Shown here piece by piece: positions 30,906 to 35,892 of a DNA stretch of 64,000 nucleotides. The position numbers and the translations under genes are program-made. This stretch comes from Roseibacillus persicicus (GTDB taxonomy: Bacteria > Verrucomicrobiota > Verrucomicrobiia > Verrucomicrobiales > Akkermansiaceae), in NCBI RefSeq assembly GCF_014651675.1, contig NZ_BMXI01000015.1, positions 62,001 through 126,000 of the forward strand. Direction: 5' to 3'. Each line of letters starts with the position of its first letter. The first letter of the stretch is position 1. The notes beneath the pieces are model-generated. The model saw only the letters and a program-made list of their open reading frames with translations. It was not told the DNA's origin and ran no database searches.

Positions 30906-31919
30906 TTATTGCTCTTCGTCCAGTTGACTCAGTTCTAGGAATTCGTGGAGCTTTGCTTGCAAGAGTTTTTTGTCGGGCAGTTTGGTTTCGTAGTGGGCAA
31001 TGAGGGCCGGAGAAAGCGAGCGACTCAAGGCATACTCCACGACTTCGTCATCTTTGCTGGCGCAAAGGAGGAGACCGATGCTGGGGTTTTCGTGCTCTTT
31101 CCTGATGTCGCGGTCGAGCGCCTCCAGGTAGAAATTCAGCTTCCCCAGGTGCTCGGGTTCGAAACGTCCGACTTTGAGTTCGATGGCAACCAGACAGTTC
31201 AGCTCGCGGTGGAAGAAGAGAAGATCGAGGGCGAAGTCCTGATTGCCCACTTGGATGGGGTGCTCCGAACCGATGAAGCAAAAATCCCGCCCGAGTTCGG
31301 TTAGGAACTCGCGGATTTTTTGGATGAGTCCTTGGTGAAGATCGTTTTCGGAGTGGGCAGCGGGTAGATCGAGGAATTCTACGAGATAAGAGTCTTTGAA
31401 AATCGATTCCGCAGAGGGGTGCAACTGGTTCACCACTGGTGAGATATCTGGGGAGCTGAGAGCAACTCTCTCAAAAAGTGCGCCCTTGAGTTGTCGCTCC
31501 AGCTCGCGGCTGGACCACTCTTCCTTTTCTACCATGTTGAGGTAAAAGTTCCGTTCTTCCGGGCTTTTGCATTGGCTGATGATCAAAAGATGATGAGTCC
31601 AACTCAATTGTCTCGGCAGTGCTGAGACAATTTCCAGGTCCGGGTAAACCTCAAAGAATTGGCGCATTCGATAGAGATTTGGCCGAGTGAAACCTCTCAA
31701 CCCTGGTTGGCTCACTTTCAGGTAGGCGGCCAATTGTTCGATCGTTTTCTTTCCCCATCCATTTGTTTCAATCTTCCTGCTTAAGATTCTGCCCACCTCC
31801 CAGTAAAGGGACACAAGCTCGTGGTTGACGGCTTGGAGGGCGCGCCTCCTGCGTTCACTCACCAAGGTCGCAATCTTTGAAAAATCGCTTTGTTCAGAAG
31901 GTGTCAGTTCGTGGCTCAT
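30906..31919 (-). CDS. DUF1016 (YhcG-type) PD-(D/E)xK nuclease-like protein, solitary
   Basis: The 337-residue protein has the DUF1016 N-terminal helices (LVSLYWEVGRILSRKI, NLYRMRQFFEVYP), the LSWTHH motif at about 105-110, and the nuclease core D232, E247, K249 (FALDLLFFHRELNC, VAIELKVGRFEPEHLGKLNF). It is related to the copy inside the R-M island but lacks the long hairpin linker. It has no R-M genes beside it and lies next to the decayed integron, so it may be a mobile defence orphan. A single hairpin lies at 31606-31632, at the same protein position as the linker hairpins of the other copy. Confidence 0.9.
   Translation of the reverse strand: MSHELTPSEQSDFSKIATLVSERRRRALQAVNHELVSLYWEVGRILSRKIETNGWGKKTIEQLAAYLKVSQPGLRGFTRPNLYRMRQFFEVYPDLEIVSALPRQLSWTHHLLIISQCKSPEERNFYLNMVEKEEWSSRELERQLKGALFERVALSSPDISPVVNQLHPSAESIFKDSYLVEFLDLPAAHSENDLHQGLIQKIREFLTELGRDFCFIGSEHPIQVGNQDFALDLLFFHRELNCLVAIELKVGRFEPEHLGKLNFYLEALDRDIRKEHENPSIGLLLCASKDDEVVEYALSRSLSPALIAHYETKLPDKKLLQAKLHEFLELSQLDEEQ
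31606..31632. repeat. Palindrome in the second DUF1016 gene
   Basis: Nine-base arms AATTGTCTC (31606-31614) and GAGACAATT (31624-31632) flank GGCAGTGCT, within which GCA and TGC can also pair. It encodes residues just before the LSWTHH motif, the position where the other DUF1016 gene carries its hairpins. Confidence 0.7.
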
Positions 31920-32036
31920 CCTGATTTTGTTCTTTTGAACATTATTAGAGGATCAGCCAAAGAAGCAAGCATGTTTGTCGCGGTGGAACTCCGCCAGTGC
32001 GCTCGGCAGAGATGGGGTTGTCGAAGCCCGGCTCGG

Positions 32037-32516
32037 TCATCTCGTCGGCGGACTGAGAAACCGAGTCGAAGGCGAACCGGAGAGCAACGGAGATGGCCGC
32101 AGGCAAACAGGTAACCCGCAGGGTTGAGCGTCAGCCCAAGAATGCCCAATTGGAGCAGAGCCAGCCTCTTTGGCTAACTCCTCCCTGCGAGCACCCTTTC
32201 TCTTTTCCGCGATCTTTGCAGGCCCTAATTGAGATTGCGAAACCATCCCCTCCTTTCCCTCATCACTGGCCGTTTCAACCCCTTTACCAAATTGAAGCAA
32301 AAGCTCTTGGAGGATTTGAGCCACCGTCCGAGCCTGCTGCTGCAGATTCGGACCCTGCCCCTTCGACGCAATCTTCTTCAAGAAAAGCGGAATCGAATCC
32401 GGTTCCCGAGGAGAATTTCCTGACTTTAGGCAAAAATCGATAAAGAATCGGCACCATTTCAAAGGATAACCCACCTCTGATCGACTGAACTGACGGCGGG
32501 TCAACTCCTGTCTCAA
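32037..32516 (-). pseudogene. Integron-type integrase fragment (N-terminal core-binding domain)
   Basis: The first 75 or so residues (RRQFSRSEVGYPLKWCRFFI, DFCLKSGNSPREPDSIPLFL, KKIASKGQGPNLQQQARTVA) resemble the SAM-like N-terminal domain of integron integrases from environmental bacteria. The catalytic tyrosine-recombinase domain is absent; after about residue 80 the frame becomes low-quality sequence and ends. The start codon would be TTG near 32516. Its leftward orientation, opposite to the lysozyme-like gene with an intervening non-coding stretch, is the standard intI-attI-cassette layout. Without the R-H-R-Y residues it cannot recombine. Confidence 0.6.
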
Positions 32517-32725
32517 AACAGCTTCAATCTAAAGTGGAATCGGTCGCATGGAATGATATCAAGGGGCTGAATATCATCCACTTGCAGAATGATATCCAGA
32601 CAAGAAATAAAGAGAAACCTTGATTCCTGCCATGTTTCTCAACATTTTTCACAAAGATTTCTGGAGATATCTAGGGGTCTGGGTAATAAATTGTTCTGCT
32701 AAAATAACCCAACCAACTAAAAAAT
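32517..32725. other. Candidate attI/promoter region of the decayed integron
   Basis: This AT-rich gap lies between the integrase fragment (leftwards) and the cassette gene (rightwards), where attI and the integrase promoter would be. It contains the direct repeat GAATGATATC at 32551-32560 and 32587-32596 with an inverted half (ATATCAT, 32571-32577) between. A possible G/TT crossover point is at 32693 (GTTCTGC). Assignment is by position and weak motif only. Confidence 0.35.
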
Positions 32726-33664
32726 ATGACATATACGAAATACATCGTTCTAGCAGCCTTATCGTTAGGCGCTGCATGCACATCTACTCCACAGTCTCAA
32801 CCAGAAAGAGTCAATCTAATTGCAAACGTTTCGGAGTATGACCCCAAAAAAGACGTTAAAGATAAAGAATCTCCTATAAATACAAATGGTGAATTTTCGG
32901 ACTTTGATGCTAAATACATAAAATCACAAGGTGTAGACGCCCTAATAGCTAGAGCAACTACTGTTTCTGGAGATAATTTATACAAGAACTATAAAGGCTT
33001 GAAAATTCTTGATAACGATAGACGTTTTTCTGATTTCATGAAAGCTGCTGATCAGGCTGGATTACGATTAGGAGCCTATCATCTTTTAAGACCAAATGAA
33101 GATCCAGTAAAGCAAGCTGATTACTATCTTGAAACAATCAAAGATTGCTATGAAAATAGAAAACTTAAAAACGCTAAGTTTTTAATGGTTCTTGATGCAG
33201 GATTCTCATCTGTGCCTGGTAAAGTCGCAAAAAGAGACGGTATAGATCCAAAAACTATTAGGCAACGTGTTACTGAGAAAGAGGTCATAACATTCATTAA
33301 ACGTATTTATGAAAAAACGGGGAAATATCCATTCTATTATCCAGAAGGAGGAGCTTCTTATGGCGAGATCGCCAGTTGGTCTCAACCATCAAAAAAACTT
33401 CTACTGAAATGTCCATTATGGATTCCTAGATTTACAGAAATTGATCCGTTTAAAGGAAGAAGCGTAACGCCTTGGAAAAACTGGACGATGCATCAATATG
33501 CAAGTGCTCTTAGTAGAATGGACAATAAATACTATTATTACTATCATGATAGTCTAACAGTCATTAAAAGGAATAATAATATCATACCCCTGGAGCTTAG
33601 TCGATGGAATAAAAGCATCCCATCGGAGTTATGGGATGATCATTCTTACGATGCTTCAAAATAA
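32726..33664 (+). CDS. GH25-like (lysozyme fold) lipoprotein, integron cassette gene
   Basis: The 312-residue protein has a lipoprotein-type leader (LAALSLGAAC). A GH25-like body includes VDALIARATTVSGDN, AADQAGLRLGAYHLLRPNED, and VKQADYYLETI. GH25 muramidases normally have an Asp-x-Glu catalytic motif after the third strand; here the site reads LMVLDAGF, keeping the Asp but with Gly where Glu is expected, so activity is doubtful. The gene is strikingly AT-rich and uses AAA, ATA and TTA codons far more than its neighbours. Flanked by an integrase fragment and an attC-like site, it is best explained as a captured cassette. Confidence 0.72.
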   Translation: MTYTKYIVLAALSLGAACTSTPQSQPERVNLIANVSEYDPKKDVKDKESPINTNGEFSDFDAKYIKSQGVDALIARATTVSGDNLYKNYKGLKILDNDRRFSDFMKAADQAGLRLGAYHLLRPNEDPVKQADYYLETIKDCYENRKLKNAKFLMVLDAGFSSVPGKVAKRDGIDPKTIRQRVTEKEVITFIKRIYEKTGKYPFYYPEGGASYGEIASWSQPSKKLLLKCPLWIPRFTEIDPFKGRSVTPWKNWTMHQYASALSRMDNKYYYYYHDSLTVIKRNNNIIPLELSRWNKSIPSELWDDHSYDASK

Positions 33665-33679
33665 AAACTAAACAAAAAG

Positions 33680-33803
33680 GCAGAACAAGGCGCTGCACCT
33701 AATCCCTGACCCGCCCCGATGTTACGTTTTATGACCATTCAACCATCAACCAAAAGTCTACGCTCGCCCTCTGGTCAGGGATAGGTGAGCTATGACGTTC
33801 TTG
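33680..33803 (+). other. attC-like integron recombination site
   Basis: The stretch starts R'' GCAGAAC (33680-33686), spacer AAGGC, L'' GCTGCACC, and ends L' GGTGAGC, spacer TATGAC, R' GTTCTTG with crossover G at 33797. L'' pairs with L' except for one extra G, the classical extrahelical base. The inner arms CACCTAATCCCTGACC (33696-33711) and GGTCAGGGATAGGTG (33773-33787) pair over 15 bases with one bulged A. About 60 bases of variable loop lie between. It begins 16 bases after the cassette gene stop, as expected for attC. Confidence 0.7.
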
Positions 33804-34057
33804 CGGATCGCGGCTACGATTCGGATATGTTGAGAAAGCAGGTTCTCGACGATGGAGGAGTTGCTCTTATCCCTCCAAAGAAGAATCGACGCAAACCGGT
33901 TCTCTACTTCCCTCACATTGGGAAGTAGAGGCATGTCGTTGAAAATTACTTCTGTCGTATCAAACGATACCGTCGAGTTCCTACGCGCTACGACCGTCTC
34001 AGCGAGACCTACATAGCGTTCGTATCTCTCGCGTCCTTAATGAATTGGCTCAAATAA
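33798..34057 (+). pseudogene. IS5-family transposase C-terminal fragment
   Basis: The frame LADRGYDSDMLRKQVLDDGG, ALIPPKKNRRKPVL, then after an in-frame TAG (33926-33928) RHVVENYFCRIKRYRRVPTR and YDRLSETYIAFVSLASLMNW matches the DDE C-terminal part of IS5-group transposases. The N-terminal part is missing: homology begins right at the attC crossover point. The last stop is at 34055-34057, and AATTTGTCCATCCGGCC just after may be the IS end. Confidence 0.78.
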
Positions 34058-34075
34058 TCAATTTGTCCATCCGGC

Positions 34076-34663
34076 CTAAACAGTTCGAAAACGTCGAGAC
34101 CCGAGACCAAGGGCTCCAAATGACACAAGAAAAATATGAGAAGGTTCGGGCACAGAAAAAGTCTGAATAATTGCGCTATCACCAGCCCATGTAACAAATA
34201 CGGTTTCTTCTTCAACCATTCCTAGGCTCGACAGAGTAGCCCCATGAAAAACAGCAGTTTCATTAACGCTTCCTATTAAAGGAGCCGTATCGACCATTTG
34301 AAGATAATAAGTTCTTTGAAAATTAAAAGTTGAATAGAAAAAAAATGGGGAACTGGTTGAAACACTTGATGCTGAGAAGAGCGATCCGGTTCCAGTCAAA
34401 CCTTTCGAGAATTCTACCCTAAATGAATTGGCTGCAGTAGTTGTCTCCCATCCAAAGACCCCCCCTAGTATACCCGGTGAAGCAGAAGCATTCGCCCCAA
34501 GCTGAATACTTGCAACTGAGGGGGTCAGGGCAGAAAAATCATAGGCTCCAATTGCTGTCATGGTCAAGTCCGTGCCATCGTCATAGATAGACATTGTGAA
34601 AGCGGCATCTAGATATCCTGCGAGGGAACCTAAAGTAATTAGAGAGAAATAATTTCGGCGCAC
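34076..34663 (-). CDS. PEP-CTERM sorting-signal exported protein
   Basis: The 195-residue protein (GTG start) has a weak N-terminal leader, a Ser/Thr-rich body with many small residues, and ends VPEPSHIFLVSFGALGLGSR plus a basic tail: the PEP motif, a hydrophobic stretch and arginines that define PEP-CTERM sorting signals. It should be exported and processed by an exosortase, which is not in this window. The body has no family I recognise. Base composition is lower in GC than the flanking chromosome, so it may belong to the acquired island. Confidence 0.82.
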   Translation of the reverse strand: MRRNYFSLITLGSLAGYLDAAFTMSIYDDGTDLTMTAIGAYDFSALTPSVASIQLGANASASPGILGGVFGWETTTAANSFRVEFSKGLTGTGSLFSASSVSTSSPFFFYSTFNFQRTYYLQMVDTAPLIGSVNETAVFHGATLSSLGMVEEETVFVTWAGDSAIIQTFSVPEPSHIFLVSFGALGLGSRRFRTV

Positions 34664-34953: not shown

Positions 34954-35892
34954 TCATTCTTCCGGGGTCTGGGCGATGTAGCGTCGCTTTCGCCCGGAAC
35001 AATAGGGGTGTTGAGAGCAACGTTGCAGAAAAGAGGGGTCTGATTTGGAGAGTTCCGTGAGGGCCGTCACCATGGCTTCTTTCGCATTGGCGTAGGGGAA
35101 GGCTTTGCCCGAAATGATGAGATGCCCGTGACGATTGGAAGACGAGGAGGGCTTCGGTTCTGCCTGAGGGGTTTGAGGAGGCCGAACCGAGTTTGTCGGT
35201 TTGGTGGGAGGAGTTTGAGAAACCACTGGTCGCCTCAAATTTGTGAGGAAGTCGGTGACGTCATCATCATCGGGACGAAAACCTGCTTTTGATTCGACCG
35301 CGTCGGCTAGCAGCTCAACGAGCGTTTCATCTCCGTTTTCAATCAGTTCGTGCCAGGCCTCAGGAATGGCGGAGCGGGCGACGGAACGGCGATTCCGGCT
35401 GCGGTATTCTCTCCGGGCGTTTTCCAAGGCTTCGCCTGATTTCACGCGATCGTTTTCCAGGTATCTTGTGAGGACGGCAGCCCCTTGTTCTGCTTCTCGC
35501 TCAAAGAGATCCAGCTTGTAAACTCTCCGATCCTCGTAGGAACCCTGTTCAGCAGGAAGGTAGAAGGACCAGGTTTTTCCGTCGGTGAGCACGATGAAGG
35601 GGACGCCGGTGTGGAAGGCATACTCGAGAGCTTGCCTGACCCCGTTCTCAGCCTTGCCGGGCTGTTTGACCTCGATGAAAATTGAGGGTTTGGAGGGTGG
35701 GTAGCACAGGGCAAAGTCCGCGCGACCCTCGCCGGTCTGAAACTCGGGCCATACGACATTTGTATCGTAAACATCCCAGCCGAGTTCTTGCAGCAGCCTC
35801 AGCACAATGCCTTGCGAGATCGCTTGTTCGTTTGGGAAACGGCCTTGGCGCAGCTTTGAGGTGACATCGGAGAGGACTTCAATGAGTGACAT
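34954..35892 (-). CDS. HsdR_N-type restriction endonuclease-like protein, C-terminally shortened
   Basis: The 312-residue protein has a PD-(D/E)xK core with D59, E74 and K76 (GEGRADFALCYPP, IFIEVKQPGKAENGVRQALE) and then TDGKTWSFYLPAEQG, as in stand-alone HsdR_N proteins. A Pro-rich linker follows, then a C-terminal HLIISGKAFPYANAKEAMVT module ending RRYIAQTPEE. Related proteins usually continue for roughly 50 residues with a GGWxxGTN-like motif, so this copy is probably truncated at its end. It is a putative standalone restriction or repair nuclease. A CTAACA hexamer lies 4 bases before the ATG. Confidence 0.8.
   Translation of the reverse strand: MSLIEVLSDVTSKLRQGRFPNEQAISQGIVLRLLQELGWDVYDTNVVWPEFQTGEGRADFALCYPPSKPSIFIEVKQPGKAENGVRQALEYAFHTGVPFIVLTDGKTWSFYLPAEQGSYEDRRVYKLDLFEREAEQGAAVLTRYLENDRVKSGEALENARREYRSRNRRSVARSAIPEAWHELIENGDETLVELLADAVESKAGFRPDDDDVTDFLTNLRRPVVSQTPPTKPTNSVRPPQTPQAEPKPSSSSNRHGHLIISGKAFPYANAKEAMVTALTELSKSDPSFLQRCSQHPYCSGRKRRYIAQTPEE

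Follow-up and report, generated by a model that had tools for sequence, protein, structure and literature searches.

Verrucomicrobiota are among the phyla for which integrons have been published (PMC8618304), and about one third of the intI genes in the survey of Nemergut et al. 2008 are pseudogenes, some of them arising by intragenomic duplication (PMC2426708). In Deltaproteobacterial clade 15 a fusion was described in 2008 by which IntI gains ~120 aa (PMC2426708). Sites of the attC type that have no integrase are known as SALIN when single and as CALIN when clustered (PMC12690207, PMC12444791). The integrase cuts attC sites at the G of GTT (PMC12901181), IntI has been documented to recombine off target at GNT triplets (PMC10127599), and for recombination at attG sites PMC12901181 cites Loot et al. 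2024. As integrons of Verrucomicrobiota are on record and intI pseudogenes are common (PMC8618304, PMC2426708), the pseudo-integron described here is of an already known kind, it adds a new example, and its interest lies in a junction and in the architecture of the integrase. A sequence-only reading of this DNA had taken the chromosomal integrons of Verrucomicrobia to be little studied, which overlooked both the published record and how common they are in the host order, where an IntI above the cut-off was found in 40 of 98 relatives.

The locus lies in a 64-kb stretch of DNA, here called the window, that spans C15:62001-126000 of a 5.28-Mb genome in 92 contigs. It is, with little room for doubt, a decayed integron that is paralogous to the one on contig C2, has kept ~138 codons of intI, attI, a cassette and an attC, and ends on the right in what is probably an off-target junction. 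Besides this broken copy of an integron, the third, the genome has two intact genes for integron integrases. Mostly the locus is an ordinary genomic fossil, what is noteworthy is a break at the exact cutting point of the recombinase and an extra DNA-binding-like domain.

The identity of the integrase fragment comes from the genome itself. When the genome was searched with its own DNA, window 32135-32704 aligned with C2:1282-1851 at 84% identity over 570 bp, the C2 segment being the 5' end of an intact gene for a 459-aa IntI plus its attI. The C2 IntI (C2:1437-2816) scores 336 bits against TIGR02249 (E=1.7e-100, cut-off 265), with Phage_int_SAM_4 at residues 145-222 and Phage_integrase at 250-439. 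A second intact IntI of 462 aa is encoded at C19:100624-102012 (403 bits, TIGR02249), next to which come a cassette and an attC, so that intact intI genes sought elsewhere in the genome are present twice. The fragment in the window (32135..32549, minus strand) comprises the N-terminal ~138 codons of an extended integron integrase, at 84% identity to the C2 intI. Its C2-homologous start codon is at 32549 with an in-frame TAG at codon 7 (32529-32531), the alignment runs from the spacer to about codon 138, and homology ends at 32135, before the canonical core-binding and catalytic domains, both of which are missing. Because of the TAG at codon 7 and the loss of homology at 32135 the gene is a pseudogene. 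An integrase frame had earlier been drawn at 32037-32516, which is right from 32135 onward and wrong for 32037-32134, bases in which integrase homology is absent, and its TTG start at 32516 skipped the codon-7 TAG. Just left of the truncation is a short repeat (32009-32054) that is 85-87% identical to C10 203679-203724 and 201849-201887, and directly left of the decayed integron is a gene for a YhcG/DUF1016-type PD-(D/E)XK nuclease (30906-31919, minus strand).

Between the pseudogene and the cassette is a spacer that carries attI (32550..32693, plus strand, crossover G at 32693) and is collinear with C2:1282-1436, which precedes the first cassette of the C2 integron. It had been described as a gap between integrase and gene, and is not empty. 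The two sequences run together to ...AATAAMTTG|TTCKGC and diverge after this point, the pattern to be expected if one attI is occupied by different first cassettes. The cassette of 1104 bp (32694..33797, plus strand) extends from the TT of the attI core site to the G of the attC R' site, with G|TT on both sides, and its ATG lies 32 bases in from the start. Its 5' end, TTCTGC, restores the 7-base complement of the R'' motif GCAGAAC; a circular cassette would join G to TTCTGC and so give GTTCTGC, the exact complement of R''. As it now stands, R' has the sequence GTTCTTG, since foreign DNA follows the crossover. Judged from these boundaries, the cassette would have entered by normal attC x attI recombination. 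That it is instead a lone off-target insertion, a SALIN, with an integrase fragment beside it by chance, is very improbable: single displaced cassettes do occur in this genome, as the lone attC with an acetyltransferase-like gene at C3:309439-309566 indicates, but here the cassette starts at the exact attI crossover of a spacer that is collinear with the C2 integron.

The attC site itself (33680..33803, plus strand) consists of R'' GCAGAAC (33680-33686), L'' GCTGCACC (33692-33699) with an extra G at 33695, L' GGTGAGC (33784-33790) and R' (33797-33803) with its GTT from 33797. The motifs, the extra G, the coordinates and the length of 124 bases are exactly as first read from the letters. A covariance model (R1) was made from six aligned attC sites, from C2, C27 (three), C19 and C3, with the window site left out. 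It matches the window at 33679-33804 with 56.4 bits (E=2.2e-15 in 64 kb), which answers the covariance-model check proposed for 33680-33803, and the next-best match in the window has an E-value of 5.9. Covariation among the six training sites supports their hairpin: 84.7% of cells are paired and 11 pairs have changed on both sides, none of 500 shuffles was as good, and slid versions drop to 29-41%. The window site folds as the expected hairpin, folding alone being modestly better than in shuffles (z about -2.2), and it is of a minority type common to C27:9945-10072 and C3. Rfam gave no match for the site, since attC sites are not RNA families.

Similar sites had been proposed as something to look for elsewhere, and over the whole genome R1 gives 55 matches, 49 of them at E<1e-6, counting the six training sites and the window site, mostly on the small contigs C27-C34. 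C27 at its right end and C2 at its left end share an identical stretch of 107 bp, thus C27 at least continues the C2 array. It appears that a large fragmented cassette array, with about 40 attC on C27-C34, is attached to the intact C2 integron, its cassettes by eye including a relE-like toxin-antitoxin pair and several lipoprotein-like genes. The lone attC on C3 lies with its acetyltransferase-like cassette outside any integron, and there too the crossover ends at GTTCT. The locus also draws attention to its genome, in which a large array occurs alongside two intact integrases.

These results bear on the most sceptical reading, that of a chance hairpin next to an unrelated recombinase fragment with no integron at all. 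Phage_integrase has no match in the window fragment, Pfam and NCBIfam find nothing with the fragment alone, so that only the C2 paralogue identifies it, and Rfam matches no family. Such a reading is nevertheless scarcely credible, as it is contradicted by the C2 paralogue, the held-out attC model, the genome-wide attC matches and the collinearity with C2. The concern that the fragment might better match another recombinase family also falls away, its best match being an intact integron integrase encoded in this genome, which itself reaches E=1.7e-100 with TIGR02249.

The cassette gene (32726..33664, plus strand), recognised from the start as rightward and AT-rich, has a GC content of 36% against 56% for the window. 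It encodes a divergent GH25-like protein of 312 aa with a lipoprotein-like signal, which passes the cut-off of PF01183 (E=1e-13), and its best solved relative is the cortical-lytic enzyme 5jip (E=1e-5). No relatives of the gene were found in the contigs of its own genome; homologues in related genomes are distant (30-35% identical) and frequent in the order as ordinary genes, and share NVSxYDPK near the N-terminus. GH25 muramidases have a catalytic D-x-E on the fourth strand. At the expected position, judged from the alignment, the cassette protein has LDAG and the homologues of the order have D-x-D, and it is possible that the muramidase activity of the cassette protein has been lost.

To the right of the cassette the sequence changes character. 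Translation from 33797 gives YDVLADRGYDSD..., a C-terminal piece of an IS5-type transposase, and the remnant (33797..34075, plus strand) comprises the 3' third of the transposase gene plus the right end of the IS, with one internal TAG, rather than a full transposase with two terminal repeats. The 5' part is absent, and was not found adjacent to the locus. An intact relative in a same-genus genome (G003) is 71% identical over 33797-34074, a local alignment given extra upstream sequence still begins at 33797, and around this position 44/60 bases are identical downstream versus 9/60 upstream. The last R' bases, earlier taken as attC, therefore belong to the IS remnant. As the IS homology begins at 33797, the boundary is the G of GTT, the point at which IntI cuts attC. 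The IS fragment was also considered as the start of a second cassette and this was dropped, there being no further attC in the window. Following the remnant is a gene for a PEP-CTERM-like protein (34076-34663, minus strand; E=0.0066, below the curated cut-off), and at 34954-35892 (minus strand) there is a gene encoding an HSDR_N-like nuclease domain of the type I restriction kind.

Judged from its position, the junction is rather probably the product of off-target recombination by IntI between attC and a GTT. The most likely route would be that IntI from this or other loci recombined the attC with a GTT inside an IS, deleting what lay between, with the GTT acting as an off-target or attG-like site. 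A less likely, though by no means negligible, explanation requires no integrase: after an IS had inserted into the array, a deletion with its end points in short GTTC repeats joined attC to the IS remnant. The junction lies inside a shared stretch of 3-4 bases, GTT(C), so microhomology-mediated deletion would give the same sequence, and IS activity near arrays is real, as related IS copies end contigs C27, C18 and C6, one of them adjoining the C27 cassette array. Yet the breakpoint is the exact IntI crossover triplet of attC, where a random deletion would strike rarely. The three contig ends (C27:1-103, C18:114562-114654, C6:269762-269854) all break off within one and the same IS, which has 77% identity to the remnant in the window, thus a multi-copy IS broke the assembly.

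The part of the integrase that is left is of interest in its own right. It includes an extra N-terminal SAM-like domain of four helices (32265..32528, minus strand), modelled with AlphaFold from the window's own fragment aligned with seven relatives (pLDDT 87.9). Its structural neighbours are the core-binding domains of Xer recombinases (XerA), V. cholerae IntI (VchIntIA) and Cre. With V. cholerae IntI (2a3v) the comparison gives a Z of 8.7 and 2.9 A over 78 residues, and the VIA Z of the domain comparison, 8.7-8.9, is of a size that chance matches between helical bundles can reach. In Foldseek the recombinases fill the first 22 rows with E-values that are not significant (best 0.2). The helices are 13-20-13-20 residues long versus 14-21-13-18 in the canonical domain, and these nearly equal lengths support the fold match, as does the run of recombinases at the top of the Foldseek rows. 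When the N-terminal extension was compared by sequence profile with the canonical core-binding domain, the match was weak (probability 15%), hence the claim of a core-binding-like domain is one of fold comparison and not of sequence profiles. A full-length IntI model was poor (pLDDT 62) and served for helix positions only. It is likely, not proven, that the extra domain of the window fragment folds like a recombinase core-binding domain, because lone helical folds at times give such Z values by chance. The sequence-only reading had named a core-binding domain here, and the predicted fold is indeed the same, but the domain is an additional N-terminal one and the canonical one is missing.

An N-terminal extension of 100-140 aa is the rule among integron integrases of the host order. 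The 98 relatives gave 58 IntI matches, 43 of them in open frames of 400 aa or more, these frames being counted from stop to stop and thus an upper bound on protein length. Among 80 loci found with the C2 IntI, matches from other phyla start near residue 141 or later, with a few at 121-138, and those that extend over the N-terminal part are from bins of Verrucomicrobiota or Opitutales, as are, by name, the closest IntI relatives. On IntI with an N-terminal extension the literature search brought up the remark about clade 15 in PMC2426708 and nothing else. It can tentatively be proposed, at somewhat less than an even chance, that IntI of the Opitutales-type Verrucomicrobiota carry a functional, clade-typical duplicated N-terminal core-binding domain, with the window holding a fossil of one together with an attC-to-IS junction made by its off-target recombination. 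Integrases with apparently two core-binding domains are a variant whose DNA recognition is directly testable.

The order, orientation and spacing of the parts, which had first suggested an integron, equal those of the intact C2 integron, and the suggestion of a decayed integron is borne out by the C2 paralogue and the held-out attC model. The intI remnant is inactivated and 84% identical to an intact intI above the TIGR02249 cut-off, and the cassette is bounded by the crossover points of attI and attC (G|TT at 32693/32694, and 33797). Of a complete integron the locus has a putative attI adjoining the intI remnant, in a spacer whose collinearity with C2 extends to the G|TT junction, and at least one attC (E=2.2e-15 with the held-out model), and lacks an intact intI with a catalytic domain. 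After entry of the cassette, intI would have gained a stop and lost everything downstream of 32135, with the array beyond the first attC being replaced by the fragment of an IS5-type transposase. The locus can no longer make its own integrase, its attC is intact in plan, and the genome's two intact IntI might in principle use this attC in trans. A synteny search of the genus with the leuB-like flank turned up no usable orthologous locus, either empty or intact. With a single attC and no catalytic intI, the locus would probably escape finder programs. It is an example of integron decay in a little-studied phylum, with intI truncated, the array cut at the crossover triplet and one cassette left.

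Compared with described systems, the locus is most like the pseudo-integrons of Nemergut et al. 2008 (PMC2426708) in that intI has a stop and a truncation whilst attI and a cassette are kept. However, those were defined mainly by stops and frameshifts, whereas the present locus has lost most of intI, and an IS fragment interrupts its array. With SALIN and CALIN (PMC12690207, PMC12444791) it shares an attC-bounded cassette with no working integrase adjoining, but unlike these it retains an intI remnant and attI, and the single attC in the window is below the default CALIN threshold of two attC without intI. The position of the junction at a GTT triplet resembles off-target IntI recombination at GNT and attG sites (PMC10127599, and Loot et al. 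2024, cited in PMC12901181), although in contrast to the documented events the present case is a fossil junction between attC and an IS, known from sequence. Finally, the long integrases of clade 15 (PMC2426708) are similar in that a fusion lengthens IntI by about 120 aa, but those are Deltaproteobacterial, whereas the host here belongs to Opitutales-related Verrucomicrobiota and the extension has a predicted core-binding-like fold.
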